Shown piece after piece: positions 1 through 64,000 of a stretch of DNA of 64,000 nt; positions within the stretch are counted from its first letter, which is position 1; every line of letters begins with the position of its first letter. The DNA lies in assembly GCA_011947345.1 (NCBI GenBank), contig JAAVTG010000786.1:1-64000 (forward strand). Direction: 5' to 3'. Source of the stretch: Phytophthora quininea. Its lineage: Eukaryota > Oomycota > Peronosporomycetes > Peronosporales > Peronosporaceae. The position numbers and the translations under genes were made by a program. The notes beneath the pieces were generated by a model, which saw nothing but the letters and a program-made list of their open reading frames with translations, ran no database searches and had not been told where the DNA came from.

Positions 1-552
1 CTCCCCACGCCCTCGGAAATCTGCCTCTGCTCGCTCACACCAACCTACACCACAAGCCCACGCACACCAACCTACACCACAAGCCCACGCACACGCTGCA
101 TACCACCATCTGTCTGCACCGCCCTGCACTGCCCACAGCGGACGGCAGATCCATTCTTCGCCGTGAGACGTCGCTCTTTCCACTACCCGTCTCGTCGGCG
201 CGGTCGCAGGCCACCGCTGCGCGTTTGACGCGGCTCGTCGGCACGAGCACATGATGCAATGCACACAAGGTGAGACCAGCCACGACACCCAATCTCGCGC
301 AGCTGTGGGACGTTATGCCGAGAGACGTCGCACAGATCGCCTCGAAGTCTCCGCGGAGAGTGTATGTGCCTGGAGATAGAGCGTGCGCCAGAGCAGCACC
401 GAGCACCGAGCACCGAGCACCGAGCACCGAGCACCGAGCACCGGGTAGCCGGGCGTGGGGCTTGATGTGGGGCTTGATGTCGCGGAGCTGCTGTTCAACG
501 TGTGCACGTGTGCATGTGTGTTTCTTGAGCGAAGGGGAAGAAAGAGCAAAGT

Positions 553-625
553 TTCCCACACCGGGACTCGAACCCGGGTCTGCTGGGTGAGAGCCAGCTA
601 TCCTAACCGCCTAGACTATATGGGA
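553..625 (-). tRNA. tRNA-Glu(CUC), left array copy 1
   Basis: A 73-base cloverleaf: acceptor TCCCATA pairs with TGTGGGA, discriminator A, anticodon stem GCTGG/CCAGC around loop CTCTCAC, giving anticodon CUC (Glu, codon GAG). The T-arm is CCGGG-TTCGAGT-CCCGG. Internal Pol III A box (TAGTCTAGGCGG) and B box (GGTTCGAGTCC) are intact. No intron and no encoded CCA. The 3' flank has only T3 runs. Confidence 0.97.
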
Positions 626-1192
626 AGGCTGGACGTCATACTCCCCACGCCCTCGGAAATCTGCCTCTGCTCGCTCACACACCAACCTACACCACAAGCC
701 CACGCACACCAACCTACACCACAAGCCCACGCACACGCTGCATACCACCATCTGTCTGCACCGCCCTGCACTGCCCACAGCGGACGGCAGATCCATTCTT
801 CGCCGTGAGACGTCGCTCTTTCCACTACCCGTCTCGTCGGCGCGGTCGCAGGCCACCGCTGCGCGTTTGACGCGGCTCGTCGGCACGAGCACATGATGCA
901 ATGCACACAAGGTGAGACCAGCCACGACACCCAATCTCGCGCAGCTGTGGGACGTTATGCCGAGAGACGTCGCACAGATCGCCTCGAAGTCTCCGCGGAG
1001 AGTGTATGTGCCTGGAGATAGAGCGCGCGAGCAGCACCGAGCACCGAGCACCGAGCACCGAGCACCGAGCACCGAGCACCGGGTAGCCGGGCGTGGGGCT
1101 TGATGTGGGGCTTGATGTCGCGGAGCTGCTGTTCAACGTGTGCACGTGTGCATGTGTGTGTTTCTTGAGCGAAGGGGAAGAAAGAGCAAAGT

Positions 1193-1266
1193 TTCCCACA
1201 CCGGGACTCGAACTCCGGGTCTGCTGGGTGAGAGCCAGCTATCCTAACCGCCTAGACTATATGGGA
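1193..1266 (-). tRNA. tRNA-Glu(CUC), left array copy 2, T-arm insertion
   Basis: 74 bases. One extra base on the 5' side of the T-arm gives CCGGAGTTCGAGT and breaks the five-pair T stem. The anticodon arm is intact. Probably non-functional, unless the extra base is a sequencing error. Confidence 0.85.
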
Positions 1267-1819
1267 AGGCTGGACGTCATACTCCCCACGCCCTCGGAAA
1301 TCTGCCTCTGCTCGCTCACACACCAACCTACACCACAAGCCCACGCACACCAACCTACACCACAAGCCCATGCACACGCTGCATACCACCATCTGTCTGC
1401 ACCGCCCTGCACTGCCCACAGCGGACGGCAGATCCATTCTTCGCCGTGAGACGTCGCTCTTTCCACTACCCGTCTCGTCGGCGCGGTCGCAGGCCACCGC
1501 TGCGCGTTTGACGCGGCTCGTCGGCACGAGCACATGATGCAATGCACACAAGGTGAGACCAGCCACGACACCCAATCTCGCGCAGCTGTGGGACGTTATG
1601 CCGAGAGACGTCGCACAGATCGCCTCGAAGTCTCCGCGGAGAGTGTATGTGCCTGGAGATAGAGCGTGCGCCAGAGCAGCACCGAGCACCGAGCACCGAG
1701 CACCGAGCACCGGGTAGCCGGGCGTGGGGCTTGATGTGGGGCTTGATGTCGCGGAGCTGCTGTTCAACGTGCACGTGTGCATGTGTGTTTCTTGAGCGAA
1801 GGGGAAGAAAGAGCAAAGT

Positions 1820-1892
1820 TTCCCACACCGGGACTCGAACCCGGGTCTGCTGGGTGAGAGCCAGCTATCCTAACCGCCTAGACTATATGGGA
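1820..1892 (-). tRNA. tRNA-Glu(CUC), left array copy 3
   Basis: Same 73-base sequence as copy 1, with intact arms and anticodon CUC. The 3' flank is T3 only. Confidence 0.96.
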
Positions 1893-2453
1893 AGGCTGGA
1901 CGTCATACTCCCCCACGCCCTCGGAAATCTGCCTCTGCTCACACACCAACCTACACCACAAGCCCACGCACACCAACCTACACCACAAGCCCACGCACAC
2001 GCTGCATACCACCATCTGTCTGCACCGCCCTGCACTGCCCACAGCGGACGGCAGATCCATTCTTCGCCGTGAGACGTCGCTCTTTCCACTACCCGTCTCG
2101 TCGGCGCGGTCGCAGGCCACCGCTGCGCGTTTGACGCGGCTCGTCGGCACGAGCACATGATGCAATGCACACAAGGTGAGACCAGCCACGACACCCAATC
2201 TCGCGCAGCTGTGGGACGTTATGCCGAGAGACGTCGCACAGATCGCCTCGAAGTCTCCGCGGAGAGTGTATGTGCCTGGAGATAGAGCGTGCGCCAGAGC
2301 AGCACCGAGCACCGAGCACCGAGCACCGAGCACCGAGCACCGGGTAGCCGGGCGTGGGGCTTGATGTGGGGCTTGATGTCGCGGAGCTGCTGTTCAACGT
2401 GTGCACGTGTGCATGTGTGTGTTTCTTGAGCGAAGGGGAAGAAAGAGCAAAGT

Positions 2454-2523
2454 TTCCCACACCGGGACTCGAACCCGGGTGCTGGGTGAGAGCCAGCTAT
2501 CCAACCGCCTAGACTATATGGGA
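2454..2523 (-). tRNA. tRNA-Glu(CUC), left array copy 4, three bases missing
   Basis: 70 bases. Two bases are missing from the variable region and one A from the D arm (GGCGGTTGGATAGC). Anticodon and T arms are intact. Likely a degenerate copy. Confidence 0.8.
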
Positions 2524-3097
2524 AGGCTGGACGTCATACTCCCCACGCCCTCGGAAATCTGCCTCTGCTCGCTCACACACCAACCTACACCACAAGCCCA
2601 CGCACACCAACCTACACCACAAGCCCACGCACACGCTGCATACCACCATCTGTCTGCACCGCCCTGCACTGCCCACAGCGGACGGCAGATCCATTCTTCG
2701 CCGTGAGACGTCGCTCTTTCCACTACCCGTCTCGTCGGCGCGGTCGCAGGCCACCGCTGCGCGTTTGACGCGGCTCGTCGGCACGAGCACATGATGCAAT
2801 GCACACAAGGTGAGACCAGCCACGACACCCAATCTCGCGCAGCTGTGGGACGTTATGCCGAGAGACGTCGCACAGATCGCCTCGAAGTCTCCGCGGAGAG
2901 TGTATGTGCCTGGAGATAGAGCGTGCGCAGAGCAGCACGAGCACCGAGCACCGAGCACCGAGCACCGAGCACCGAGCACCGAGCACCGGGTAGCCGGGCG
3001 TGGGGCTTGATGTGGGGCTTGATGTCGCGGAGCTGCTGTTCAACGTGTGCACGTGTGCATGTGTGTTTCTTGAGCGAAGGGGAAGAAAGAGCAAAGT

Positions 3098-3170
3098 TTC
3101 CCACACGGGACTCGAACTCCGGGTCTGCTGGGTGAGAGCCAGCTATCCTAACCGCCTAGACTATATGGGA
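3098..3170 (-). tRNA. tRNA-Glu(CUC), left array copy 5, altered T arm
   Basis: 73 bases, but this length comes from one inserted and one deleted base on opposite sides of the T stem (GGAGTTCGAGTCCCGTG). T-stem pairing is disturbed while the anticodon arm is normal. The insertion matches that of copy 2, suggesting shared descent or conversion. Confidence 0.82.
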
Positions 3171-3730
3171 AGGCTGGACGTCATACTCCCCACGCCCTCG
3201 GAAATCTGCCTCTGCTCGCTCACACACCAACCTACACCACAAGCCCACGCACACCAACCTACACCACAAGCCCACGCACACGCTGCATACCACCATCTGT
3301 CTGCACCGCCCTGCACTGCCCACAGCGGACGGCAGATCCATTCTTCGCCGTGAGACGTCGCTCTTTCCACTACCCGTCTCGTCGGCGCGGTCGCAGGCCA
3401 CCGCTGCGCGTTTGACGCGGCTCGTCGGCACGAGCACATGATGCAATGCACACAAGGTGAGACCAGCCACGACACCCAATCTCGCGCAGCTGTGGGACGT
3501 TATGCCGAGAGACGTCGCACAGATCGCCTCGAAGTCTCCGCGGAGAGTGTATGTGCCTGGAGATAGAGCGTGCGCCAGAGCAGCACCGAGCACCGAGCAC
3601 CGAGCACCGAGCACCGAGCACCGTAGCCGGGCGTGGGGCTTGATGTGGGGCTTGATGTCGCGGAGCTGCTGTTCAACGTGCACGTGTGCATGTGTGTGTT
3701 TCTTGAGCGAAGGGGAAGAAAGAGCAAAGT

Positions 3731-3802
3731 TTCCCACACCGGGACTCGAACCCGGGTCTGCTGGGTGAGAGCCAGCTATCCAACCGCCTAGACTATATGG
3801 GA
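3731..3802 (-). tRNA. tRNA-Glu(CUC), left array copy 6, D-arm deletion
   Basis: 72 bases. One A is missing from the D arm (GGTTGGATAGC), the same change as in copy 4. The rest is intact. Confidence 0.85.
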
Positions 3803-4379
3803 AGGCTGGACGTCATACTCCCCACGCCCTCGGAAATCTGCCTCTGCTCGCTCACACACCAACCTACACCACAAGCCCACGCACACCAACCTACACCACA
3901 AGCCCACGCACACGCTGCATACCACCATCTGTCTGCACCGCCCTGCACTGCCCACAGCGGACGGCAGATCCATTCTTCGCCGTGAGACGTCGCTCTTTCC
4001 ACTACCCGTCTCGTCGGCGCGGTCGCAGGCCACCGCTGCGCGTTTGACGCGGCTCGTCGGCACGAGCACATGATGCAATGCACACAAGGTGAGACCAGCC
4101 ACGACACCCAATCTCGCGCAGCTGTGGGACGTTATGCCGAGAGACGTCGCACAGATCGCCTCGAAGTCTCCGCGGAGAGTGTATGTGCCTGGAGATAGAG
4201 CGTGCGCCAGAGCAGCACCGAGCACCGAGCACCGAGCACCGAGCACCGAGCAGCACCGAGCACCGAGCACCGGGTAGCCGGGCGTGGGGCTTGATGTGGG
4301 GCTTGATGTCGCGGAGCTGCTGTTCAACGTGCACGTGTGCATGTGTGTGTTTCGAGCGAAGGGGAAGAAAGAGCAAAGT

Positions 4380-4452
4380 TTCCCACACCGGGACTCGAAC
4401 CCGGGTCTGCTGGGTGAGAGCCAGCTATCCTAACCGCCTAGACTATATGGGA
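4380..4452 (-). tRNA. tRNA-Glu(CUC), left array copy 7
   Basis: Intact 73-base copy. The unit to its left has a variant heptamer tract, with an extra cag inside the accgagc repeats near 4250. Confidence 0.96.
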
Positions 4453-5015
4453 AGGCTGGACGTCATACTCCCCACGCCCTCGGAAATCTGCCTCTGCTCG
4501 CTCACACACCAACCTACACCACAAGCCCACGCACACCAACCTACACCACAAGCCCACGCACACGCTGCATACCACCATCTGTCTGCACCGCCCTGCACTG
4601 CCCACAGCGGACGGCAGATCCATTCTTCGCCGTGAGACGTCGCTCTTTCCACTACCCGTCTCGTCGGCGCGGTCGCAGGCCACCGCTGCGCGTTTGACGC
4701 GGCTCGTCGGCACGAGCACATGATGCAATGCACACAAGGTGAGACCAGCCACGACACCCAATCTCGCGCAGCTGTGGGACGTTATGCCGAGAGACGTCGC
4801 ACAGATCGCCTCGAAGTCTCCGCGGAGAGTGTATGTGCCTGGAGATAGAGCGTGCGCCAGAGCAGCACCGAGCACCGAGCACCGAGCACCGAGCACCGAG
4901 CACCGGGTAGCCGGGCGTGGGGCTTGATGTGGGGCTTGATGTCGCGGAGCTGCTGTTCAACGTGTGCACGTGTGCATGTGTGTGTTTCTTGAGCGAAGGG
5001 GAAGAAGAGCAAAGT

Positions 5016-5087
5016 TTCCCACACCGGGACTCGAACCCGGGTCTGCTGGGTGAGAGCCAGCTATCTAACCGCCTAGACTATATGGGA
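5016..5087 (-). tRNA. tRNA-Glu(CUC), left array copy 8, D-arm deletion
   Basis: 72 bases. One G is missing from the D arm (GGTTAGATAGC). The units that follow to the right carry a single 27 bp element instead of two. Confidence 0.85.
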
Positions 5088-5643
5088 AGGCTGGACGTCA
5101 TACTCCCCACGCCCTCGGAAATCTGCCTCTGCTCGCTCACACACCAACCTACACCACAAGCCCACGCACACGCTGCATACCACCATCTGTCTGCACCGCC
5201 CTGCACTGCCCACAGCGGACGGCAGATCCATTCTTCGCCGTGAGACGTCGCTCTTTCCACTACCCGTCTCGTCGGCGCGGTCGCAGGCCACCGCTGCGCG
5301 TTTGACGCGGCTCGTCGGCACGAGCACATGATGCAATGCACACAAGGTGAGACCAGCCACGACACCCAATCTCGCGCAGCTGTGGGACGTTATGCCGAGA
5401 GACGTCGCACAGATCGCCTCGAAGTCTCCGCGGAGAGTGTATGTGCCTGGAGATAGAGCGTGCGCCAGAGCAGCGAGCACCGAGCACCGAGCGAGCCGAG
5501 CACCGAGCACCGAGCACCGAGCACCGAGCACCGGGTAGCCGGGCGTGGGGCTTGATGTGGGGCTTGATGTCGCGGAGCTGCTGTTCAACGTGTGCACGTG
5601 TGCATGTGTGTTTTCTTGAGCGAAGGGGAAGAAAGAGCAAAGT

Positions 5644-5716
5644 TTCCCACACCGGGACTCGAACCCGGGTCTGCTGGGTGAGAGCCAGCTATCCTAACCG
5701 CCTAGACTATATGGGA
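5644..5716 (-). tRNA. tRNA-Glu(CUC), left array copy 9
   Basis: Intact 73-base copy. The heptamer tract beside it is rearranged (gcgagccgagc near 5490). Confidence 0.96.
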
Positions 5717-6239
5717 AGGCTGGACGTCATACTCCCCACGCCCTCGGAAATCTGCCTCTGCTCGCTCACACACCAACCTACACCACAAGCCCACGCACAC
5801 GCTGCATACCACCATCTGTCTGCACCGCCCTGCACTGCCCACAGCGGACGGCAGATCCATTCTTCGCCGTGAGACGTCGCTCTTTCCACTACCCGTCTCG
5901 TCGGCGCGGTCGCAGGCCACCGCTGCGCGTTTGACGCGGCTCGTCGGCACGAGCACATGATGCAATGCACACAAGGTGAGACCAGCCACGACACCCAATC
6001 TCGCGCAGCTGTGGGACGTTATGCCGAGAGACGTCGCACAGATCGCCTCGAAGTCTCCGCGGAGAGTGTATGTGCCTGGAGATAGAGCGTGCGCCAGAGC
6101 AGCACCGAGCACCGAGCACCGAGCACCGGGTAGCCGGGCGTGGGGCTTGATGTGGGGCTTGATGTCGCGGAGCTGCTGTTCAACGTGTGCACGTGTGCAT
6201 GTGTGTGTTTCTTGAGCGAAGGGGAAGAAAGAGCAAAGT

Positions 6240-6312
6240 TTCCCACACCGGGACTCGAACCCGGGTCTGCTGGGTGAGAGCCAGCTATCCTAACCGCCTA
6301 GACTATATGGGA
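6240..6312 (-). tRNA. tRNA-Glu(CUC), left array copy 10
   Basis: Intact 73-base copy, ending the shortest unit (596 bp), which has few heptamers and one 27 bp element. Confidence 0.96.
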
Positions 6313-6863
6313 AGGCTGGACGTCATACTCCCCACGCCCTCGGAAATCTGCCTCTGCTCGCTCACACACCAACCTACACCACAAGCCCACGCACACGCTG
6401 CATACCACCATCTGTCTGCACCGCCCTGCACTGCCCACAGCGGACGGCAGATCCATTCTTCGCCGTGAGACGTCGCTCTTTCCACTACCCGTCTCGTCGG
6501 CGCGGTCGCAGGCCACCGCTGCGCGTTTGACGCGGCTCGTCGGCACGAGCACATGATGCAATGCACACAAGGTGAGACCAGCCACGACACCCAATCTCGC
6601 GCAGCTGTGGGACGTTATGCCGAGAGACGTCGCACAGATCGCCTCGAAGTCTCCGCGGAGAGTGTATGTGCCTGGAGATAGAGCGTGCGCCAGAGCAGCA
6701 CCGAGCACCGAGCACCGAGCACCGAGCACCGAGCACCGAGCACCGAGCACCGGGTAGCCGGGCGTGGGGCTTGATGTGGGGCTTGATGTCGCGGAGCTGC
6801 TGTTCAACGTGTGCACGTGTGCATGTGTGTGTTTCTTGAGCGAAGGGGAAGAAAGAGCAAAGT

Positions 6864-6936
6864 TTCCCACACCGGGACTCGAACCCGGGTCTGCTGGGTG
6901 AGAGCCAGCTATCCTAACCGCCTAGACTATATGGGA
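6864..6936 (-). tRNA. tRNA-Glu(CUC), left array copy 11
   Basis: Intact 73-base copy with only T3 downstream. From here the units alternate between two and one 27 bp elements. Confidence 0.96.
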
Positions 6937-7487
6937 AGGCTGGACGTCATACTCCCCACGCCCTCGGAAATCTGCCTCTGCTCGCTCACACACCAACCTA
7001 CACCACAAGCCCACGCACACCAACCTACACCACAAGCCCATGCACACGCTGCATACCACCATCTGTCTGCACCGCCCTGCACTGCCCACAGCGGACGGCA
7101 GATCCATTCTTCGCCGTGAGACGTCGCTCTTTCCACTACCCGTCTCGTCGGCGCGGTCGCAGGCCACCGCTGCGCGTTTGACGCGGCTCGTCGGCACGAG
7201 CACATGATGCAATGCACACAAGGTGAGACCAGCCACGACACCCAATCTCGCGCAGCTGTGGGACGTTATGCCGAGAGACGTCGCACAGATCGCCTCGAAG
7301 TCTCCGCGGAGAGTGTATGTGCCTGGAGATAGAGCGTGCGCCAGAGCAGCACCGAGCACCGAGCACCGAGCACCGGGTAGCCGGGCGTGGGGCTTGATGT
7401 GGGGCTTGATGTCGCGGAGCTGCTGTTCAACGTGTGCACGTGTGCATGTGTGTGTTTCTTGAGCGAAGGGGAAGAAAGAGCAAAAGT

Positions 7488-7560
7488 TTCCCACACCGGG
7501 ACTCGAACCCGGGTCTGCTGGGTGAGAGCCAGCTATCCTAACCGCCTAGACTATATGGGA
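7488..7560 (-). tRNA. tRNA-Glu(CUC), left array copy 12, with T4
   Basis: Intact 73-base copy. Its 3' flank reads AACTTTTGCTC on the tRNA strand, so this unit has a T4 run, the minimal Pol III terminator, which copies 1-11 lack. Confidence 0.97.
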
Positions 7561-8110
7561 AGGCTGGACGTCATACTCCCCACGCCCTCGGAAATCTGCC
7601 TCTGCTCGCTCACACACCAACCTACACCACAAGCCCACGCACACGCTGCATACCACCATCTGTCTGCACCGCCCTGCACTGCCCACAGCGGACGGCAGAT
7701 CCATTCTTCGCCGTGAGACGTCGCTCTTTCCACTGCCCGTCTCGTCGGCGCGGTCGCAGGCCACCGCTGCGCGTTTGACGCGGCTCGTCGGCACGAGCAC
7801 ATGATGCAATGCACACAAGGTGAGACCAGCCACGACACCCAATCTCGCGCAGCTGTGGGACGTTATGCCGAGAGACGTCGCACAGATCGCCTCGAAGTCT
7901 CCGCGGAGAGTGTATGTGCCTGGAGATAGAGCGTGCGCCAGAGCAGCACCGAGCACCGAGCACCGAGCACCGAGCACCGAGCACCGAGCACCGAGCACCG
8001 GGTAGCCGGGCGTGGGGCTTGATGTGGGGCTTGATGTCGCGGAGCTGCTGTTCAACGTGTGCACGTGTGCATGTGTGTTTCTTGAGCGAAGGGGAAGAAA
8101 GAGCAAAAGT

Positions 8111-8183
8111 TTCCCACACCGGGACTCGAACCCGGGTCTGCTGGGTGAGAGCCAGCTATCCTAACCGCCTAGACTATATGGGA
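8111..8183 (-). tRNA. tRNA-Glu(CUC), left array copy 13, with T4
   Basis: Intact 73-base copy with the AACTTTTGCTC terminator context. Confidence 0.97.
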
Positions 8184-8748
8184 AGGCTGGACGTCATACT
8201 CCCCACGCCCTCGGAAATCTGCCTCTGCTCGCTCACACACCAACCTACACCACAAGCCCACGCACACCAACCTACACCACAAGCCCATGCACACGCTGCA
8301 TACCACCATCTGTCTGCACCGCCCTGCACTGCCCACAGCGGACGGCAGATCCATTCTTCGCCGTGAGACGTCGCTCTTTCCACTACCCGTCTCGTCGGCG
8401 CGGTCGCAGGCCACCGCTGCGCGTTTGACGCGGCTCGTCGGCACGAGCACATGATGCAATGCACACAAGGTGAGACCAGCCACGACACCCAATCTCGCGC
8501 AGCTGTGGGACGTTATGCCGAGAGACGTCGCACAGATCGCCTCGAAGTCTCCGCGGAGAGTGTATGTGCCTGGAGATAGAGCGTGCGCCAGAGCAGCACC
8601 GAGCACCGAGCACCGAGCACCGAGCACCGAGCACCGGGTAGCCGGGCGTGGGGCTTGATGTGGGGCTTGATGTCGCGGAGCTGCTGTTCAACGTGTGCAC
8701 GTGTGCATGTGTGTGTTTCTTGAGCGAAGGGGAAGAAAGAGCAAAAGT

Positions 8749-8821
8749 TTCCCACACCGGGACTCGAACCCGGGTCTGCTGGGTGAGAGCCAGCTATCCT
8801 AACCGCCTAGACTATATGGGA
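8749..8821 (-). tRNA. tRNA-Glu(CUC), left array copy 14, with T4
   Basis: Intact 73-base copy with T4 downstream. It is the last copy before the array ends 175 bp further right. Confidence 0.97.
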
Positions 8822-8996
8822 AGGCTGGACGTCATACTCCCCACGCCCTCGGAAATCTGCCTCTGCTCGCTCACACACCAACCTACACCACAAGCCCACG
8901 CACACGCTGCATACCACCATCTGTCTGCACCGCCCTGCACTGCCCACAGCGGACGGCAGATCCATTCTTCGCCGTGAGACGTCGCTCTTTCCACTG

Positions 8997-9709: not shown

Positions 9710-9713
9710 TTAA

Positions 9714-16026: not shown

Positions 16027-16156
16027 GGCGTCCGACAACTTGCAAGCAATGGACGTCCAAGCGATTGGGTATCGAGTTTTCAGCCAGTGAATTTCAACCA
16101 ATGAATACATTTTTGAAAAAAGTGAATAAAATTAAAGAAAAATGGCTACAGCCACT

Positions 16157-19640: not shown

Positions 19641-19649
19641 ACCAGAGGG

Positions 19650-41693: not shown

Positions 41694-41699
41694 GTTTGA

Positions 41700-43010: not shown

Positions 43011-43078
43011 GCACTCAGATAATCGTTTTTGCACGCTACCTGTCAAGACGAACCCTAACCCCTCTTCTGCGAAGAACA

Positions 43079-45141: not shown

Positions 45142-45142
45142 G

Positions 45143-47680: not shown

Positions 47681-47689
47681 TGACGGCAA

Positions 47690-48343
47690 CGCTCCGCTAC
47701 CCCATCGGCGCTGACGCGTCGTCGCAGCTGTAAACCGAGTGTTGTAGTAGTAGCTAAGCTCACCAACCAATTCCATCAAAATGCGCCAAAGTAGCTCAGC
47801 TGTGTCTTGGTGATCGAGAAGCGGCTGACCGGCTCTGACCACGACGAGGTCCACGCATCGCTGGAGGCTGACTCGCTCGTGGAGTAGCGAACCTCCCACA
47901 CCGGCGTCCTGACAAACCACCATCACTCTGATACGAACCACGAGGAGTGCCTCCGGTTGCGCGACGGGTGCTTGAACGTTTCTTGAAGGTCGTTCGATGA
48001 CGTGACAAAGCTCCGGGGCGGCACCAACGAACGTTCTACGAACTTCGTACTGCGAATATGAGAGCAATTCATGATCTGGCGTAAGCTGGTTCCTTCAGGG
48101 CCGTGGCCAAGATGCTGTGAAAAAATATTCGACAATTCGTCACCATCGGCATGGTAGAAGCCACGGAGATCCACAGTGCATTTTCATCCAGTAAATTCTG
48201 CGTTTCTTAATTATACACATGTATAACTCTGGGTGCTTGATGACCCTAAAGTTGGATCCACTTTGCCCTGATGCTTTTTGAGACCCGCAACAATCTAAAG
48301 TATGTGCAAACTTAAAGGTGTTTTCGACTATTTAACGGGTGCC
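47690..48343. other. Gene-free flank between Helitron and PiggyBac
   Basis: No supported gene. The 3' end of the Helitron should lie here, but I see no convincing CTRR terminus. Confidence 0.45.
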
Positions 48344-48347
48344 TTAA

Positions 48348-52355: not shown

Positions 52356-52428
52356 GTCGACGTAGTGTAGTGGTTATCACGTCTGCTTTACACGCAGAAG
52401 GTCGCCGGTTCGAACCCGGCCGTTGACA
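52356..52428 (+). tRNA. tRNA-Val(UAC), single copy
   Basis: 73 bases: acceptor GTCGACG pairs with CGTTGAC, discriminator A, anticodon stem TCTGC/GCAGA around TTTACAC, giving UAC (Val, codon GUA). The T-arm is GCCGG-TTCGAAC-CCGGC. A T5 run follows at about 52448. TATAAAA lies about 20 bp upstream. This is a normal solitary tRNA gene, unlike the arrays on either side. Confidence 0.96.
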
Positions 52429-52429
52429 C

Positions 52430-53195: not shown

Positions 53196-53268
53196 TCCCA
53201 AATAGTCTAGGCGGTTAGGATACGTGGCTTTCACCCACGCGACCCGGGTTCGAGTCCCGGTTTGGGAA
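53196..53268 (+). tRNA. tRNA-Glu(UUC), right array copy 1
   Basis: 73 bases: acceptor TCCCAAA/TTTGGGA, discriminator A, anticodon stem CGTGG/CCACG around CTTTCAC, giving UUC (Glu, codon GAA). The T-arm is CCGGG-TTCGAGT-CCCGG; A and B boxes are intact; there is no intron. TC then T4 follows the gene. Confidence 0.97.
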
Positions 53269-53831
53269 TCTTTTACTGTATCCACGCCCTTTATGTTGCT
53301 CGTTGAGGCGAACGGGCTGGTCCATCCTATGGCTTCTCCGGCCGTCTGCGCTGCGACTGGCTCGGACCGCGGCCGTGTGTTTGCCGCAGACGACGCGCGA
53401 ACAAGTACGCGACTGGTTGCAGCGGAAAACCGACCACCGACCGATGGTCGAGCTAGCCTCACCACCAAGAGCGCGCAGCCAGCGCTGGGGTCGGCGACAG
53501 CGCTGGGGTCAGCAACAGCGCTGGGGTCAGCGACAGCGCTGGGGTCAGCGACAGCGCCGTGGATCTGCTGAGAGACTGCGGTAGCTATCGTCGCGCGTGT
53601 AAGCGGCCTGTTGTCACCAACGAAAGTCGGGCTGGCGATCCGTCTAGCGGTGAGTGGTCTTGGTTGCCACGGAGTACGGGGCCGATCTAGTGCGTCGGCG
53701 AGCGTGTGTCGGGGAGGAACGGGCGCGCGTTGTGGTGGGGACCACGCGTGCAGATGTGTGTGTGGTGTGCGACGCGTTGTAGCGCGTGTAGAGCGCTTTG
53801 TTGGGAGGTAAGGGTTGTTACGAGAAGGTAC

Positions 53832-53904
53832 TCCCAAATAGTCTAGGCGGTTAGGATACGTGGCTTTCACCCACGCGACCCGGGTTCGAGTCCCGGTTTG
53901 GGAA
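53832..53904 (+). tRNA. tRNA-Glu(UUC), right array copy 2, T3 only
   Basis: Intact 73-base copy, but its 3' flank reads tctttactg, so the T run is three bases. Confidence 0.96.
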
Positions 53905-54450
53905 TCTTTACTGTATCCACGCCCTTTATGTTGCTCGTTGAGGCGAACGGGCTGGTCCATCCTATGGCTTCTCCGGCCGTCTGCGCTGCGACTGGCTCGG
54001 ACCGCGGCCGTGTGTTTGCCGCAGACGACGCGCGAACAAGTACGCGACTGGTTGCAGCGGAAAACCGACCACCGACCGATGGTCGAGCTAGCCTCACCAC
54101 CAAGAGCGCGCAGCCAGCGCTGGGGTCGGCGACAGCGCTGGGGTCAGCAACAGCGCTGGGGTCAGCGACAGCGCCGTGGATCTGCTGAGAGACTGCGGTA
54201 GCTATCGTCGCGCGTGTAAGCGGCCTGTTGTCACCAACGAAAGTCGGGCTGGCGATCCGTCTAGCGGTGAGTGGTCTTGGTTGCCACGGAGTACGGGGCC
54301 GATCTAGTGCGTCGGCGAGCGTGTGTCGGGGAGGAACGGGCGCGCGTTGTGGTGGGGACCACGCGTGCAGATGTGTGTGTGTGGTGTGCGACGCGTTGTA
54401 GCGCGTGTAGAGCGCTTTGTTGGGAGGTAAGGGTTGTTACGAGAAGGTAC

Positions 54451-54523
54451 TCCCAAATAGTCTAGGCGGTTAGGATACGTGGCTTTCACCCACGCGACCC
54501 GGGTTCGAGTCCCGGTTTGGGAA
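54451..54523 (+). tRNA. tRNA-Glu(UUC), right array copy 3
   Basis: Intact 73-base copy with T4 downstream. The spacer that follows has three 15 bp elements. Confidence 0.97.
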
Positions 54524-55070
54524 TCTTTTACTGTATCCACGCCCTTTATGTTGCTCGTTGAGGCGAACGGGCTGGTCCATCCTATGGCTTCTCCGGCCGT
54601 CTGCGCTGCGACTGGCTCGGACCGCGGCCGTGTGTTTGCCGCAGACGACGCGCGAACAAGTACGCGACTGGTTGCAGCGGAAAACCGACCACCGACCGAT
54701 GGTCGAGCTAGCCTCACCACCAAGAGCGCGCAGCCAGCGCTGGGGTCGGCGACAGCGCTGGGGTCAGCAACAGCGCTGGGGTCAGCGACAGCGCCGTGGA
54801 TCTGCTGAGAGACTGCGGTAGCTATCGTCGCGCGTGTAAGCGGCCTGTTGTCACCAACGAAAGTCGGGCTGGCGATCCGTCTAGCGGTGAGTGGTCTTGG
54901 TTGCCACGGAGTACGGGGCCGATCTAGTGCGTCGGCGAGCGTGTGTCGGGGAGGAACGGGCGCGCGTTGTGGTGGGGACCACGCGTGCAGATGTGTGTGT
55001 GTGGTGTGCGACGCGTTGTAGCGCGTGTAGAGCGCTTTGTTGGGAGGTAAGGGTTGTTACGAGAAGGTAC

Positions 55071-55143
55071 TCCCAAATAGTCTAGGCGGTTAGGATACGT
55101 GGCTTTCACCCACGCGACCCGGGTTCGAGTCCCGGTTTGGGAA
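55071..55143 (+). tRNA. tRNA-Glu(UUC), right array copy 4
   Basis: Intact, T4 downstream. The spacer carries the long TG tract. From here the units settle to two 15 bp elements. Confidence 0.97.
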
Positions 55144-55670
55144 TCTTTTACTGTATCCACGCCCTTTATGTTGCTCGTTGAGGCGAACGGGCTGGTCCAT
55201 CCTATGGCTTCTCCGGCCGTCTGCGCTGCGACTGGCTCGGACCGCGGCCGTGTGTTTGCCGCAGACGACGCGCGAACAAGTACGCGACTGGTTGCAGCGG
55301 AAAACCGACCACCGACCGATGGTCGAGCTAGCCTCACCACCAAGAGCGCGCAGCCAGCGCTGGGGTCGGCGACAGCGCTGGGGTCAGCGACAGCGCCGTG
55401 GATCTGCTGAGAGACTGCGGTAGCTATCGTCGCGCGTGTAAGCGGCCTGTTGTCACCAACGAAAGTCGGGCTGGCGATCCGTCTAGCGGTGAGTGGTCTT
55501 GGTTGCCACGGAGTACGGGGCCGATCTAGTGCGTCGGCGAGCGTGTGTCGGGGAGGAACGGGCGCGCGTTGTGGTGGGGACCACGCGTGCAGATGTGTGT
55601 GTGGTGTGCGACGCGTTGTAGCGCGTGTAGAGCGCTTTGTTGGGAGGTAAGGGTTGTTACGAGAAGGTAC

Positions 55671-55743
55671 TCCCAAATAGTCTAGGCGGTTAGGATACGT
55701 GGCTTTCACCCACGCGACCCGGGTTCGAGTCCCGGTTTGGGAA
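55671..55743 (+). tRNA. tRNA-Glu(UUC), right array copy 5
   Basis: Intact, T4 downstream. Short TG tract upstream; first short member of the ~1,201 bp dimer series. Confidence 0.97.
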
Positions 55744-56272
55744 TCTTTTACTGTATCCACGCCCTTTATGTTGCTCGTTGAGGCGAACGGGCTGGTCCAT
55801 CCTATGGCTTCTCCGGCCGTCTGCGCTGCGACTGGCTCGGACCGCGGCCGTGTGTTTGCCGCAGACGACGCGCGAACAAGTACGCGACTGGTTGCAGCGG
55901 AAAACCGACCACCGACCGATGGTCGAGCTAGCCTCACCACCAAGAGCGCGCAGCCAGCGCTGGGGTCGGCGACAGCGCTGGGGTCAGCGACAGCGCCGTG
56001 GATCTGCTGAGAGACTGCGGTAGCTATCGTCGCGCGTGTAAGCGGCCTGTTGTCACCAACGAAAGTCGGGCTGGCGATCCGTCTAGCGGTGAGTGGTCTT
56101 GGTTGCCACGGAGTACGGGGCCGATCTAGTGCGTCGGCGAGCGTGTGTCGGGGAGGAACGGGCGCGCGTTGTGGTGGGGACCACGCGTGCAGATGTGTGT
56201 GTGTGGTGTGCGACGCGTTGTAGCGCGTGTAGAGCGCTTTGTTGGGAGGTAAGGGTTGTTACGAGAAGGTAC

Positions 56273-56345
56273 TCCCAAATAGTCTAGGCGGTTAGGATAC
56301 GTGGCTTTCACCCACGCGACCCGGGTTCGAGTCCCGGTTTGGGAA
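56273..56345 (+). tRNA. tRNA-Glu(UUC), right array copy 6, T3 only
   Basis: Intact cloverleaf with T3 downstream. Long TG tract upstream. Confidence 0.96.
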
Positions 56346-56871
56346 TCTTTACTGTATCCACGCCCTTTATGTTGCTCGTTGAGGCGAACGGGCTGGTCCA
56401 TCCTATGGCTTCTCCGGCCGTCTGCGCTGCGACTGGCTCGGACCGCGGCCGTGTGTTTGCCGCAGACGACGCGCGAACAAGTACGCGACTGGTTGCAGCG
56501 GAAAACCGACCACCGACCGATGGTCGAGCTAGCCTCACCACCAAGAGCGCGCAGCCAGCGCTGGGGTCGGCGACAGCGCTGGGGTCAGCGACAGCGCCGT
56601 GGATCTGCTGAGAGACTGCGGTAGCTATCGTCGCGCGTGTAAGCGGCCTGTTGTCACCAACGAAAGTCGGGCTGGCGATCCGTCTAGCGGTGAGTGGTCT
56701 TGGTTGCCACGGAGTACGGGGCCGATCTAGTGCGTCGGCGAGCGTGTGTCGGGGAGGAACGGGCGCGCGTTGTGGTGGGGACCACGCGTGCAGATGTGTG
56801 TGTGGTGTGCGACGCGTTGTAGCGCGTGTAGAGCGCTTTGTTGGGAGGTAAGGGTTGTTACGAGAAGGTAC

Positions 56872-56944
56872 TCCCAAATAGTCTAGGCGGTTAGGATACG
56901 TGGCTTTCACCCACGCGACCCGGGTTCGAGTCCCGGTTTGGGAA
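56872..56944 (+). tRNA. tRNA-Glu(UUC), right array copy 7
   Basis: Intact, T4 downstream, short TG tract; exactly 1,201 bp after copy 5. Confidence 0.97.
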
Positions 56945-57473
56945 TCTTTTACTGTATCCACGCCCTTTATGTTGCTCGTTGAGGCGAACGGGCTGGTCCA
57001 TCCTATGGCTTCTCCGGCCGTCTGCGCTGCGACTGGCTCGGACCGCGGCCGTGTGTTTGCCGCAGACGACGCGCGAACAAGTACGCGACTGGTTGCAGCG
57101 GAAAACCGACCACCGACCGATGGTCGAGCTAGCCTCACCACCAAGAGCGCGCAGCCAGCGCTGGGGTCGGCGACAGCGCTGGGGTCAGCGACAGCGCCGT
57201 GGATCTGCTGAGAGACTGCGGTAGCTATCGTCGCGCGTGTAAGCGGCCTGTTGTCACCAACGAAAGTCGGGCTGGCGATCCGTCTAGCGGTGAGTGGTCT
57301 TGGTTGCCACGGAGTACGGGGCCGATCTAGTGCGTCGGCGAGCGTGTGTCGGGGAGGAACGGGCGCGCGTTGTGGTGGGGACCACGCGTGCAGATGTGTG
57401 TGTGTGGTGTGCGACGCGTTGTAGCGCGTGTAGAGCGCTTTGTTGGGAGGTAAGGGTTGTTACGAGAAGGTAC

Positions 57474-57546
57474 TCCCAAATAGTCTAGGCGGTTAGGATA
57501 CGTGGCTTTCACCCACGCGACCCGGGTTCGAGTCCCGGTTTGGGAA
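57474..57546 (+). tRNA. tRNA-Glu(UUC), right array copy 8
   Basis: Intact, T4 downstream, long TG tract; 1,201 bp after copy 6. Confidence 0.97.
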
Positions 57547-58072
57547 TCTTTTACTGTATCCACGCCCTTTATGTTGCTCGTTGAGGCGAACGGGCTGGTC
57601 CATCCTATGGCTTCTCCGGCCGTCTGCGCTGCGACTGGCTCGGACCGCGGCCGTGTGTTTGCCGCAGACGACGCGCGAACAAGTACGCGACTGGTTGCAG
57701 CGGAAAACCGACCACCGACCGATGGTCGAGCTAGCCTCACCACCAGAGCGCGCAGCCAGCGCTGGGGTCGGCGACAGCGCTGGGGTCAGCGACAGCGCCG
57801 TGGATCTGCTGAGAGACTGCGGTAGCTATCGTCGCGCGTGTAAGCGGCCTGTTGTCACCAACGAAAGTCGGGCTGGCGATCCGTCTAGCGGTGAGTGGTC
57901 TTGGTTGCCACGGAGTACGGGGCCGATCTAGTGCGTCGGCGAGCGTGTGTCGGGGAGGAACGGGCGCGCGTTGTGGTGGGGACCACGCGTGCAGATGTGT
58001 GTGTGGTGTGCGACGCGTTGTAGCGCGTGTAGAGCGCTTTGTTGGGAGGTAAGGGTTGTTACGAGAAGGTAC

Positions 58073-58145
58073 TCCCAAATAGTCTAGGCGGTTAGGATAC
58101 GTGGCTTTCACCCACGCGACCCGGGTTCGAGTCCCGGTTTGGGAA
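58073..58145 (+). tRNA. tRNA-Glu(UUC), right array copy 9
   Basis: Intact, T4 downstream, short TG tract; 1,201 bp after copy 7. Confidence 0.97.
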
Positions 58146-58674
58146 TCTTTTACTGTATCCACGCCCTTTATGTTGCTCGTTGAGGCGAACGGGCTGGTCC
58201 ATCCTATGGCTTCTCCGGCCGTCTGCGCTGCGACTGGCTCGGACCGCGGCCGTGTGTTTGCCGCAGACGACGCGCGAACAAGTACGCGACTGGTTGCAGC
58301 GGAAAACCGACCACCGACCGATGGTCGAGCTAGCCTCACCACCAAGAGCGCGCAGCCAGCGCTGGGGTCGGCGACAGCGCTGGGGTCAGCGACAGCGCCG
58401 TGGATCTGCTGAGAGACTGCGGTAGCTATCGTCGCGCGTGTAAGCGGCCTGTTGTCACCAACGAAAGTCGGGCTGGCGATCCGTCTAGCGGTGAGTGGTC
58501 TTGGTTGCCACGGAGTACGGGGCCGATCTAGTGCGTCGGCGAGCGTGTGTCGGGGAGGAACGGGCGCGCGTTGTGGTGGGGACCACGCGTGCAGATGTGT
58601 GTGTGTGGTGTGCGACGCGTTGTAGCGCGTGTAGAGCGCTTTGTTGGGAGGTAAGGGTTGTTACGAGAAGGTAC

Positions 58675-58747
58675 TCCCAAATAGTCTAGGCGGTTAGGAT
58701 ACGTGGCTTTCACCCACGCGACCCGGGTTCGAGTCCCGGTTTGGGAA
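58675..58747 (+). tRNA. tRNA-Glu(UUC), right array copy 10
   Basis: Intact, T4 downstream, long TG tract; 1,201 bp after copy 8. The spacer after it has the one-base variant ctcgaccgcgg. Confidence 0.97.
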
Positions 58748-59275
58748 TCTTTTACTGTATCCACGCCCTTTATGTTGCTCGTTGAGGCGAACGGGCTGGT
58801 CCATCCTATGGCTTCTCCGGCCGTCTGCGCTGCGACTGGCTCGACCGCGGCCGTGTGTTTGCCGCAGACGACGCGCGAACAAGTACGCGACTGGTTGCAG
58901 CGGAAAACCGACCACCGACCGATGGTCGAGCTAGCCTCACCACCAAGAGCGCGCAGCCAGCGCTGGGGTCGGCGACAGCGCTGGGGTCAGCGACAGCGCC
59001 GTGGATCTGCTGAGAGACTGCGGTAGCTATCGTCGCGCGTGTAAGCGGCCTGTTGTCACCAACGAAAGTCGGGCTGGCGATCCGTCTAGCGGTGAGTGGT
59101 CTTGGTTGCCACGGAGTACGGGGCCGATCTAGTGCGTCGGCGAGCGTGTGTCGGGGAGGAACGGGCGCGCGTTGTGGTGGGGACCACGCGTGCAGATGTG
59201 TGTGTGTGGTGTGCGACGCGTTGTAGCGCGTGTAGAGCGCTTTGTTGGGAGGTAAGGGTTGTTACGAGAAGGTAC

Positions 59276-59348
59276 TCCCAAATAGTCTAGGCGGTTAGGA
59301 TACGTGGCTTTCACCCACGCGACCCGGGTTCGAGTCCCGGTTTGGGAA
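59276..59348 (+). tRNA. tRNA-Glu(UUC), right array copy 11
   Basis: Intact, T4 downstream. The following spacer combines the ctcgaccgcgg variant with gctgggtcgg, a pairing seen again only after copy 15. Confidence 0.97.
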
Positions 59349-59891
59349 TCTTTTACTGTATCCACGCCCTTTATGTTGCTCGTTGAGGCGAACGGGCTGG
59401 TCCATCCTATGGCTTCTCCGGCCGTCTGCGCTGCGACTGGCTCGACCGCGGCCGTGTGTTTGCCGCAGACGACGCGCGAACAAGTACGCGACTGGTTGCA
59501 GCGGAAAACCGACCACCGACCGATGGTCGAGCTAGCCTCACCACCAAGAGCGCGCAGCCAGCGCTGGGTCGGCGACAGCGCTGGGGTCAGCGACAGCGCT
59601 GGGGTCAGCGACAGCGCCGTGGATCTGCTGAGAGACTGCGGTAGCTATCGTCGCGCGTGTAAGCGGCCTGTTGTCACCAACGAAAGTCGGGCTGGCGATC
59701 CGTCTAGCGGTGAGTGGTCTTGGTTGCCACGGAGTACGGGGCCGATCTAGTGCGTCGGCGAGCGTGTGTCGGGGAGGAACGGGCGCGCGTTGTGGTGGGG
59801 ACCACGCGTGCAGATGTGTGTGTGGTGTGCGACGCGTTGTAGCGCGTGTAGAGCGCTTTGTTGGGAGGTAAGGGTTGTTACGAGAAGGTAC

Positions 59892-59964
59892 TCCCAAATA
59901 GTCTAGGCGGTTAGGATACGTGGCTTTCACCCACGCGACCCGGGTTCGAGTCCCGGTTTGGGAA
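59892..59964 (+). tRNA. tRNA-Glu(UUC), right array copy 12
   Basis: Intact, T4 downstream. The following spacer has a rearranged 15 bp tract (gtcagcgcgtcagcg). Confidence 0.97.
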
Positions 59965-60501
59965 TCTTTTACTGTATCCACGCCCTTTATGTTGCTCGTT
60001 GAGGCGAACGGGCTGGTCCATCCTATGGCTTCTCCGGCCGTCTGCGCTGCGACTGGCTCGGACCGCGGCCGTGTGTTTGCCGCAGACGACGCGCGAACAA
60101 GTACGCGACTGGTTGCAGCGGAAAACCGACCACCGACCGATGGTCGAGCTAGCCTCACCACCAAGAGCGCGCAGCCAGCGCTGGGGTCAGCGCGTCAGCG
60201 ACAGCGCTGGGGTCAGCGACAGCGCCGTGGATCTGCTGAGAGACTGCGGTAGCTATCGTCGCGCGTGTAAGCGGCCTGTTGTCACCAACGAAAGTCGGGC
60301 TGGCGATCCGTCTAGCGGTGAGTGGTCTTGGTTGCCACGGAGTACGGGGCCGATCTAGTGCGTCGGCGAGCGTGTGTCGGGGAGGAACGGGCGCGCGTTG
60401 TGGTGGGGACCACGCGTGCAGATGTGTGTGTGTGGTGTGCGACGCGTTGTAGCGCGTGTAGAGCGCTTTGTTGGGAGGTAAGGGTTGTTACGAGAAGGTA
60501 C

Positions 60502-60575
60502 TCCCAAATAGTCTAGGCGGTTAGGATACGTGGCTTTCACCCACGCGACCCGGGTTCAGAGTCCCGGTTTGGGAA
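60502..60575 (+). tRNA. tRNA-Glu(UUC), right array copy 13, T-loop insertion
   Basis: 74 bases. An extra A in the T loop (GGGTTCAGAGTCCC) enlarges the loop and breaks the B box, so transcription and folding should suffer. T3 downstream. Confidence 0.85.
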
Positions 60576-61099
60576 TCTTTACTGTATCCACGCCCTTTAT
60601 GTTGCTCGTTGAGGCGAACGGGCTGGTCCATCCTATGGCTTCTCCGGCCGTCTGCGCTGCGACTGGCTCGGACCGCGGCCGTGTGTTTGCCGCAGACGAC
60701 GCGCGAACAAGTACGCGACTGGTTGCAGCGGAAAACCGACCACCGACCGATGGTCGAGCTAGCCTCACCACCAAGAGCGCGCAGCCAGCGCTGGGGTCGG
60801 CGACAGCGCTGGGGTCAGCGACAGCGCCGTGGATCTGCTGAGAGACTGCGGTAGCTATCGTCGCGCGTGTAAGCGGCCTGTTGTCACCAACGAAAGTCGG
60901 GCTGGCGATCCGTCTAGCGGTGAGTGGTCTTGGTTGCCACGGAGTACGGGGCCGATCTAGTGCGTCGGCGAGCGTGTGTCGGGGAGGAACGGGCGCGCGT
61001 TGTGGTGGGGACCACGCGTGCAGATGTGTGTGGTGTGCGACGCGTTGTAGCGCGTGTAGAGCGCTTTGTTGGGAGGTAAGGGTTGTTACGAGAAGGTAC

Positions 61100-61171
61100 T
61101 CCCAAATAGTCTAGGCGGTTAGATACGTGGCTTTCACCCACGCGACCCGGGTTCGAGTCCCGGTTTGGGAA
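61100..61171 (+). tRNA. tRNA-Glu(UUC), right array copy 14, D-arm deletion
   Basis: 72 bases. One G is missing from the D arm (GGTTAGATACG), the counterpart of the lesion in left-array copy 8. T3 downstream. Confidence 0.85.
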
Positions 61172-61694
61172 TCTTTACTGTATCCACGCCCTTTATGTTG
61201 CTCGTTGAGGCGAACGGGCTGGTCCATCCTATGGCTTCTCCGGCCGTCTGCGCTGCGACTGGCTCGACCGCGGCCGTGTGTTTGCCGCAGACGACGCGCG
61301 AACAAGTACGCGACTGGTTGCAGCGGAAAACCGACCACCGACCGATGGTCGAGCTAGCCTCACCACCAAGAGCGCGCAGCCAGCGCTGGGGTCGGCGACA
61401 GCGCTGGGGTCAGCGACAGCGCCGTGGATCTGCTGAGAGACTGCGGTAGCTATCGTCGCGCGTGTAAGCGGCCTGTTGTCACCAACGAAAGTCGGGCTGG
61501 CGATCCGTCTAGCGGTGAGTGGTCTTGGTTGCCACGGAGTACGGGGCCGATCTAGTGCGTCGGCGAGCGTGTGTCGGGGAGGAACGGGCGCGCGTTGTGG
61601 TGGGGACCACGCGTGCAGATGTGTGTGTGGTGTGCGACGCGTTGTAGCGTGTGTAGCGCTTTGTTGGGAGGTAAGGGTTGTTACGAGAAGGTAC

Positions 61695-61766
61695 TCCCAA
61701 ATAGTCTAGGCGGTTAGGATACGTGGCTTCACCCACGCGACCCGGGTTCGAGTCCCGGTTTGGGAA
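61695..61766 (+). tRNA. tRNA-Glu(UUC), right array copy 15, anticodon-loop deletion
   Basis: 72 bases. One T is missing from the anticodon loop, leaving six bases (CTTCAC). It should not decode normally. T3 downstream. Confidence 0.85.
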
Positions 61767-62308
61767 TCTTTACTGTATCCACGCCCTTTATGTTGCTCGT
61801 TGAGGCGAACGGGCTGGTCCATCCTATGGCTTCTCCGGCCGTCTGCGCTGCGACTGGCTCGACCGCGGCCGTGTGTTTGCCGCAGACGACGCGCGAACAA
61901 GTACGCGACTGGTTGCAGCGGAAAACCGACCACCGACCGATGGTCGAGCTAGCCTCACCACCAAGAGCGCGCAGCCAGCGCTGGGTCGGCGACAGCGCTG
62001 GGGTCAGCGACAGCGCTGGGGTCAGCGACAGCGCCGTGGATCTGCTGAGAGACTGCGGTAGCTATCGTCGCGCGTGTAAGCGGCCTGTTGTCACCAACGA
62101 AAGTCGGGCTGGCGATCCGTCTAGCGGTGAGTGGTCTTGGTTGCCACGGAGTACGGGGCCGATCTAGTGCGTCGGCGAGCGTGTGTCGGGGAGGAACGGG
62201 CGCGCGTTGTGGTGGGGACCACGCGTGCAGATGTGTGTGTGGTGTGCGACGCGTTGTAGCGCGTGTAGAGCGCTTTGTTGGGAGGTAAGGGTTGTTACGA
62301 GAAGGTAC

Positions 62309-62381
62309 TCCCAAATAGTCTAGGCGGTTAGGATACGTGGCTTTCACCCACGCGACCCGGGTTCGAGTCCCGGTTTGGGAA
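62309..62381 (+). tRNA. tRNA-Glu(UUC), right array copy 16
   Basis: Intact, T4 downstream. Confidence 0.97.
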
Positions 62382-62907
62382 TCTTTTACTGTATCCACGC
62401 CCTTTATGTTGCTCGTTGAGGCGAACGGGCTGGTCCATCCTATGGCTTCTCCGGCCGTCTGCGCTGCGACTGGCTCGGACCGCGGCCGTGTGTTTGCCGC
62501 AGACGACGCGCGAACAAGTACGCGACTGGTTGCAGCGGAAAACCGACCACCGACCGATGGTCGAGCTAGCCTCACCACCAAGAGCGCGCAGCCAGCGCTG
62601 GGGTCGGCGACAGCGCTGGGGTCAGCGACAGCGCCGTGGATCTGCTGAGAGACTGCGGTAGCTATCGTCGCGCGTGTAAGCGGCCTGTTGTCACCAACGA
62701 AAGTCGGGCTGGCGATCCGTCTAGCGGTGAGTGGTCTTGGTTGCCACGGAGTACGGGGCCGATCTAGTGCGTCGGCGAGCGTGTGTCGGGAGGAACGGGC
62801 GCGCGTTGTGGTGGGGACCACGCGTGCAGATGTGTGTGTGGTGTGCGACGCGTTGTAGCGCGTGTAGAGCGCTTTGTTGGGAGGTAAGGGTTGTTACGAG
62901 AAGGTAC

Positions 62908-62980
62908 TCCCAAATAGTCTAGGCGGTTAGGATACGTGGCTTTCACCCACGCGACCCGGGTTCGAGTCCCGGTTTGGGAA
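62908..62980 (+). tRNA. tRNA-Glu(UUC), right array copy 17, T3 only
   Basis: Intact cloverleaf with T3 downstream. Confidence 0.96.
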
Positions 62981-63507
62981 TCTTTACTGTATCCACGCCC
63001 TTTATGTTGCTCGTTGAGGCGAACGGGCTGGTCCATCCTATGGCTTCTCCGGCCGTCTGCGCTGCGACTGGCTCGGACCGCGGCCGTGTGTTTGCCGCAG
63101 ACGACGCGCGAACAAGTACGCGACTGGTTGCAGCGGAAAACCGACCACCGACCGATGGTCGAGCTAGCCTCACCACCAAGAGCGCGCAGCCAGCGCTGGG
63201 GTCGGCGACAGCGCTGGGGTCAGCGACAGCGCCGTGGATCTGCTGAGAGACTGCGGTAGCTATCGTCGCGCGTGTAAGCGGCCTGTTGTCACCAACGAAA
63301 GTCGGGCTGGCGATCCGTCTAGCGGTGAGTGGTCTTGGTTGCCACGGAGTACGGGGCCGATCTAGTGCGTCGGCGAGCGTGTGTCGGGGAGGAACGGGCG
63401 CGCGTTGTGGTGGGGACCACGCGTGCAGATGTGTGTGTGTGTGTGCGACGCGTTGTAGCGCGTGTAGAGCGCTTTGTTGGGAGGTAAGGGTTGTTACGAG
63501 AAGGTAC

Positions 63508-63580
63508 TCCCAAATAGTCTAGGCGGTTAGGATACGTGGCTTTCACCCACGCGACCCGGGTTCGAGTCCCGGTTTGGGAA
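63508..63580 (+). tRNA. tRNA-Glu(UUC), right array copy 18, T3 only
   Basis: Intact cloverleaf with T3 downstream. The following spacer again has the ctcgaccgcgg variant. Confidence 0.96.
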
Positions 63581-64000
63581 TCTTTACTGTATCCACGCCC
63601 TTTATGTTGCTCGTTGAGGCGAACGGGCTGGTCCATCCTATGGCTTCTCCGGCCGTCTGCGCTGCGACTGGCTCGACCGCGGCCGTGTGTTTGCCGCAGA
63701 CGACGCGCGAACAAGTACGCGACTGGTTGCAGCGGAAAACCGACCACCGACCGATGGTCGAGCTAGCCTCACCACCAAGAGCGCGCAGCCAGCGCTGGGG
63801 TCGGCGACAGCGCTGGGGTCAGCGACAGCGCCGTGGATCTGCTGAGAGACTGCGGTAGCTATCGTCGCGCGTGTAAGCGGCCTGTTGTCACCAACGAAAG
63901 TCGGGCTGGCGATCCGTCTAGCGGTGAGTGGTCTTGGTTGCCACGGAGTACGGGGCCGATCTAGTGCGTCGGCGAGCGTGTGTCGGGGAGGAACGGGCGC

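Follow-up and report, generated by a model that had tools for sequence, protein, structure and literature searches.

Two outward-facing arrays of glutamate tRNA genes at one locus of Phytophthora quininea, and further tRNA gene arrays in the same genome

The first 64,000 bases of contig C779 (104157 bases; JAAVTG010000786.1 of the Phytophthora quininea assembly GCA_011947345.1), referred to here as the window, hold two tandem arrays of glutamate (Glu) tRNA genes, one for each isoacceptor, which face outward from a segment lying between them. In our view, with a probability of about 0.9, these are ordinary RNA polymerase III (Pol III) tRNA arrays at one locus, which would grow and become homogenised by unequal exchange, and which are not peculiar to glutamate. 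In the window, ARAGORN typed 33 tRNA genes. The tRNA-Glu(CUC) array occupies 551-8822 on the minus strand with 14 genes, one in each unit of 596-649 bp (13 units measured), while the tRNA-Glu(UUC) array at 53196-63580 on the plus strand comprises the first 18 of 53 genes, one in each unit of 595-636 bp (17 units measured). Units of this kind, arranged head to tail, some hundreds of bp long and with one tRNA gene apiece, are what characterises the arrays of the Phytophthora type. Rfam, at its gathering score, gave 31 matches in the window, all of them tRNA and corresponding to 31 of the 33 ARAGORN genes, with 13/14 genes of the CUC array and 17/18 of the UUC array recovered and scores of 46-62 bits across the 30 matched Glu copies. 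The two genes missed were the CTC copy at 2454 and the TTC copy at 61695; the latter is one base short, with the anticodon given by ARAGORN as "tc", and the other 17 of the 18 plus-strand Glu genes read TTC. The original prediction, made from the letters of the window, had thus counted the 14 and 18 Glu genes exactly and placed them properly in units of ~600-650 bp; its account of the tRNA content was complete for Glu genes and left unmentioned a Val(TAC) gene at 52356.

Within each of the two window arrays, pairwise identity is 97.3-100%. Between the arrays, the tRNA itself is the sole strong match of the CTC and TTC consensus units (78 bp, 88%), the second-best match being 20 bp long. A common origin of the two spacers was considered and rejected, as matches outside the tRNA are of 8-30 bp only, and the view that the arrays are separate and their spacers unrelated is upheld. 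Both arrays extend past the ends of the window, as predicted. The CTC array also runs past the left end of the contig, and the UUC array continues on C779 to a total of 53 plus-strand Glu genes, the last at 85458, followed by 18.7 kb more of contig; 3 of these 53 genes have a damaged anticodon.

Searches of the whole assembly (87.2 Mb, 993 contigs), on which all copy numbers given here are based, revealed the same pair on a second contig, C543. There, ARAGORN found a CTC array of 11 genes on the minus strand (939906-946487; 11/11 exact) and a TTC array of 14 genes on the plus strand (1003490-1011278; 14/14 exact), both closed inside the contig, in the same order and orientation as on C779 and with no inexact copy among the 25. 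The arrays stand 44.4 kb apart on C779 and 57.0 kb apart on C543. Outside the arrays, where alignments of at least 800 bases were listed, the two contigs are colinear in 13 blocks of 90.4-99.4% identity, with one-sided stretches between them. Because C543 repeats the pair and aligns outside the arrays, the two Glu arrays are linked, and C779 and C543 would represent haplotypes of one individual with allelic arrays. An artificial join or collapse of unrelated contigs was likewise rejected for the arrangement, since it recurs on C543 with matching flanks; both this and a location of the arrays on different chromosomes had been named as results that would overturn the claim of a shared chromosome segment, which is thereby strengthened.

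Two further contigs, C33 with 29 CTC genes and C32 with 11, cover the opposite edge of the CTC array. Against C543, C33 shows 98.8% identity in a 10.8 kb flank, followed by ~4.3 kb unaligned and then by 90.8% over the array edge, and C32, compared without its first 38 kb, aligns to C543 at 90.7% over the edge of the CTC array, while C32 and C33 are 97.6% identical to each other with 271 gap bases in 12.3 kb. A fifth contig, C814 (40 kb), is almost wholly array: ARAGORN typed 58 Glu genes and 3 damaged copies at 1794-39705, the total of 61 including three copies typed as "SeC" that we counted as damaged Glu from their even spacing. A fuzzy tRNA search pointed to a possible extra copy at 490. 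This search found almost only exact copies and missed those with indels (9 of the 14 CTC genes of C779 were recovered), and the ARAGORN counts were preferred for that reason. The exact full-length TTC tRNA pattern has 58 matches in the assembly, 14 on C543 and 44 on C779, and the exact CTC pattern 89, distributed over C32 (7), C33 (27), C543 (11), C779 (9) and C814 (35). With up to 2 mismatches allowed, a Glu-tRNA core pattern matched 169 times genome-wide (64 plus, 105 minus), and all 169 matches sit in the array pieces of C543, C779, C814, C32 and C33; a Glu gene beyond 2 mismatches from the core would escape this search. On the basis of the assembly, one haplotype would therefore carry 11 CUC and 14 UUC copies, and the other at least 61 CUC copies, if C814 is right, and 53 UUC copies.

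In regard to the uniformity of the units, spacings outside 550-720 bp were excluded before the consensus was made, leaving 13, 51, 10, 13, 27, 8 and 60 units in seven array pieces. Mean pairwise identity is 98.8-99.8% in each piece, with the lowest pair at 96.0%, and the CTC consensus units of C779, C33, C32 and C814 show zero substitutions among them. Comparison with C543, restricted to columns with 70% occupancy in both contig groups (64 TTC and 118 CTC units), gave spacer differences at 13/508 sites for CTC and 18/512 for TTC (2.6-3.5%), and none in the consensus tRNA (0/74 and 0/72, respectively). The 13 CTC and 18 TTC spacer differences are near-fixed between the contig groups, and among the same 64 TTC and 118 CTC units no column has a minor variant carried by at least two copies in each group. 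Taken together, 0/146 differing sites in the tRNA against 31/1020 in the spacer (Fisher P 0.025) weakly suggest constraint on the tRNA relative to the spacer. Furthermore, the spacers hold minisatellites, detected by Tandem Repeats Finder (TRF), that differ in length between the contigs. The 7-bp repeat AGCACCG of the CTC spacer (for example at 395-443) is present in runs of 2 in 10/10 units of C543 and of 4-8 in the 13 units of C779, with 2-10 on C33, 4-6 on C32 and 3-8 on C814, and the 18-bp repeat of the UUC spacer (for example at 53480-53557) has 0-1 cores per unit in 13 units of C543 and 2-4 in 51 units of C779. Such contig-specific, near-uniform spacers and minisatellites correspond to the pattern that would be expected from exchange within each haplotype.

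The Glu arrays are accompanied by others. A B-box pattern matched the assembly 1102 times, compared with 154 for the control, and other regular arrays are already among the first 100 matches. Three patterns were followed over their first 100 matches each, so that the arrays counted are a minimum for the genome; ARAGORN typed between one and a few units on each contig, and the spacing was taken from the pattern matches. At least 11 non-Glu isoacceptors proved to be arrayed. Monomeric arrays were found for Tyr(GTA) on C8 and C815 (14 and 8 pattern matches among those listed, as are the following counts unless given as minimum), Asn(GTT) on C549 and C606 (31 and 21), Leu(AAG) on C235 and C342 (18 and 14), Leu(CAA) on C118 (9) and Asp(GTC) on C304 (at least 17). 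Dimeric arrays combine Gly(TCC) with Gly(CCC) on C38 and C39 (29 minus-strand matches on C38), Gln(TTG) with Gln(CTG) on C86 (31), and Ala(AGC) with His(GTG) on C266 and C279 (25 and 7 matches of the His B-box). Because these other isoacceptors are arrayed in the same genome, nothing appears special to glutamate, and amplification specific to Glu, one of the accounts of the pair offered by the original prediction, was abandoned as the main reading once the B-box pattern had revealed them. In both typed Ala-His units (L035 on C266 and L036 on C279) the gap between the two genes is a single base, and the pair looks like a dicistronic tRNA transcript. In the C8 piece, tRNA genes without a visible array follow the Tyr array. 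The fetched piece C50:42200-42500 contained no tRNA according to ARAGORN, and the pattern GGTTCGAACCC, which is partly palindromic, was uninformative with 49 matches against 41 for its control. An AT-rich tRNA-Lys/Ala pair on the 145 kb contig G000:C389 is present in copies ~36.6 kb apart (103450-103750 and 140050-140350), and in this contig the mitochondrial genome was probably assembled several times in a row.

According to the scenario we favour, two Glu isoacceptor genes would each have given rise by amplification to a monomeric tandem array at one chromosomal locus, with the arrays transcribed outward from a gene-bearing segment of ~44 kb (C779) or ~57 kb (C543). With one tRNA gene and its internal Pol III promoter per unit, the gene being intact in most units, each copy could be transcribed singly, as known Pol III biology would have it. 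Expansion and contraction of the arrays, together with their continued uniformity, could then result from unequal crossing-over or gene conversion that takes place mostly inside one haplotype. We infer unequal exchange from the spacer pattern of the contig groups and from the precedent of Phytophthora infestans 1306, in which tRNA genes were reported in 2022 to lie largely in tandem arrays, isoacceptor pairs included, an organisation backed there by read depth and for which its authors propose unequal crossing-over (PMC9584435). Several observations weigh against this scenario. Some tRNA genes are not arrayed, such as the Val gene of the window and an opposed Arg(CCG) pair in the C41 piece, and the CTC consensus unit lacks any run of four T, so that its Pol III terminator would not be canonical. 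The test contrasting tRNA and spacer is a weak one, and transcription of the array copies and their contribution to the tRNA supply are read from sequence. Assembly copy numbers may be collapsed on C543 or inflated on C779 and C814. Finally, many tRNA copies of C779 and C814 have single-base gains or losses, which look like consensus errors and could also be real decay.

Among other explanations, an unusually high need for tRNA-Glu could have selected for independent amplification of both isoacceptors. Both isoacceptors are indeed amplified, with every detected Glu gene in these arrays. The open reading frame (ORF) of a NAT10-like gene in the window has GAG:GAA codons at 65:16, which fits many CUC copies, and four other counted ORFs are less skewed (12:7, 20:16, 7:6 and 10:10). 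Nevertheless, the arrays of other isoacceptors speak against selection for Glu dosage, and so does P. infestans, where gene number and codon use are only modestly correlated (R = 0.41) and the most expanded families, Pro and Ser, bind infrequently used codons (PMC9584435). The several-fold gap in copy number between the contigs, if the assembly is right, also argues against tight tuning, and we regard this explanation as improbable. A structural role for the arrays flanking the 44-57 kb segment, as chromatin boundaries, as nuclear anchors or in the control of replication forks, seems somewhat less probable still. It would agree with the outward-facing pair on both C779 and C543, with the human tRNA repeat at 1q23.3 implicated as a boundary (PMC4041453), and with the question raised by the P. 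infestans authors of whether arrays help to organise chromatin (PMC9584435), but this support is not direct, and no other outward-facing pair was seen among the matches listed, for which no dedicated search was made. A subtelomeric site, one of the roles originally suggested, is contradicted by C543, a contig of 1.94 Mb with the arrays between 0.94 and 1.01 Mb, more than 0.9 Mb from both ends; C779 is too short to inform on this.

A reading in which a single Glu locus, with two outward-facing arrays differing several-fold in size between haplotypes, forms one fast-evolving and adjustable domain of both Glu-tRNA dosage and chromatin around the intervening 44-57 kb strikes us as very unlikely. 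Least credible of all is that collapsed, expanded or misjoined repeats produced the arrays as artefacts of assembly. Inexact copies do concentrate outside C543, with exact to ARAGORN-typed copies at 44/53 (TTC) and 9/14 (CTC) on C779, 27/29 on C33, 7/11 on C32 and 35/61 on C814, and the alignment of C32 and C33 at 97.6% means that one of them may be a duplicate. On the other hand, C543 independently has the pair with its flanks, every copy exact and both arrays closed, which largely refutes an artefact as regards the arrangement, though not the copy number. We thus retain ordinary arrays, probably maintained by unequal exchange, as the best explanation.

The segment between the arrays contains an uninterrupted ORF at 12727-16110 on the minus strand for a NAT10/TmcA-type RNA cytidine acetyltransferase (Pfam PF13718, PF13725, PF08351 and PF05127). 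Its protein is 94% identical to one from Phytophthora nicotianae and 83-93% to those of other Peronosporaceae among the matches listed, which places the host in the Phytophthora group of oomycetes; that it is an oomycete the original prediction had supposed. The lone tRNA-Val(UAC) gene lies at 52356-52429 on the plus strand (ARAGORN; Rfam 69.9 bits) and precedes the UUC array by ~0.77 kb; on C543, too, a Val(TAC) gene is found upstream of this array, at 1002655. A 7.3 kb stretch of C779 at 40768-48042 is missing from C543, which is near-continuous at 996176-996182, and could represent a heterozygous insertion; it includes an ORF with DUF6570 at 42410-43717, which we take to be Helitron-like. 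Conversely, 9.4 kb at C543:982169-991612 are present only on that side, opposite window positions 35332-35334. At 50982-51641, 0.7 kb from the Val tRNA, another ORF has a weak DDE_Tnp_1_7 match just below the Pfam cut-off, presumably piggyBac-like.

As for termination of transcription, 9 of 15 hand-listed tRNA flanks have a run of three or more T followed by GC no farther than 14 bases downstream of the tRNA; in C779:9001-52000, by comparison, GC follows 63 of 534 T-runs. This could be a short terminator motif for Pol III, with the caveat that the flanks were hand-picked and the two counts are not strictly alike. These flanks come from the CTC units of the window and from other array loci (L027-L044); two AT-rich genes (L043), four mitochondrion-like genes (L041, L042), the Ala gene abutting His and second copies of a family were omitted from the count.

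Since P. infestans provides the precedent and belongs to the same group, the arrays described here are a further instance of a reported organisation, and we do not claim the Glu pair as unreported. The word stem "glutam" is absent from the main text of PMC9584435, whose per-family map sits in its figures and supplements, and a literature search, with most subscription papers, figures and supplements outside its reach, found no description of a Glu array pair. Long-read oomycete assemblies hold from 380 to 8,606 tRNA genes (PMC9584435). The likeness to P. infestans lies in its mono-, di- or trimeric units that measure some hundreds of bp (513 nt for Cys), in the near-identity of units in its monomeric arrays on a single chromosome, and in its many tRNA genes on unplaced contigs suspected to be divergent haplotypes; its array pair of Gln CTG and TTG also has a counterpart on C86 (PMC9584435). 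Two outward-facing Glu arrays at one locus and haplotype-specific fixation of spacers differ from that account. The P. quininea locus could add a two-haplotype view of how arrays of the Phytophthora type evolve, with spacers 2.6-3.5% apart and near-uniform inside each contig, the tRNA consensus constant, and the complete UUC array differing about four-fold in copy number in the assembly (53 vs 14). That the detected Glu-tRNA genes are all at one locus with large differences, presumably allelic, is a new detail, and such natural haplotypes would make the effect of array size on translation testable.

Arrays of tRNA genes are also known from other organisms. In Entamoeba, tandem units hold up to five tRNA genes, E. 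histolytica and E. dispar have short tandem repeats of variable number in their spacers, comparable to the 7-bp and 18-bp repeats described above, and arrays are mostly uniform within an isolate and different between isolates, which resembles our contig groups (PMC2652664). The likeness to these arrays that had been pointed out from the window thus extends to the spacers. In E. histolytica, almost all tRNA genes are arrayed and make up more than 10% of the genome (PMC2652664); in the present genome, at least the Val gene stands alone. The lineages are unrelated, so that the likeness is convergence at most. A similarly large allelic range is found at human 1q23.3, where a tRNA-bearing tandem repeat has 9-43 copies per allele, but its units measure 7.3 kb and bind CTCF (PMC4041453), compared with ~600 bp here. 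Likewise, tandem tRNA units have been compared across ecotypes of Arabidopsis, in the SYY cluster of Ser and Tyr genes (PMC12308677), which is silenced in most tissues, and in the Cys cluster with units of 0.4 kbp (PMC10701932), which holds four genes, unlike the long arrays of P. quininea.

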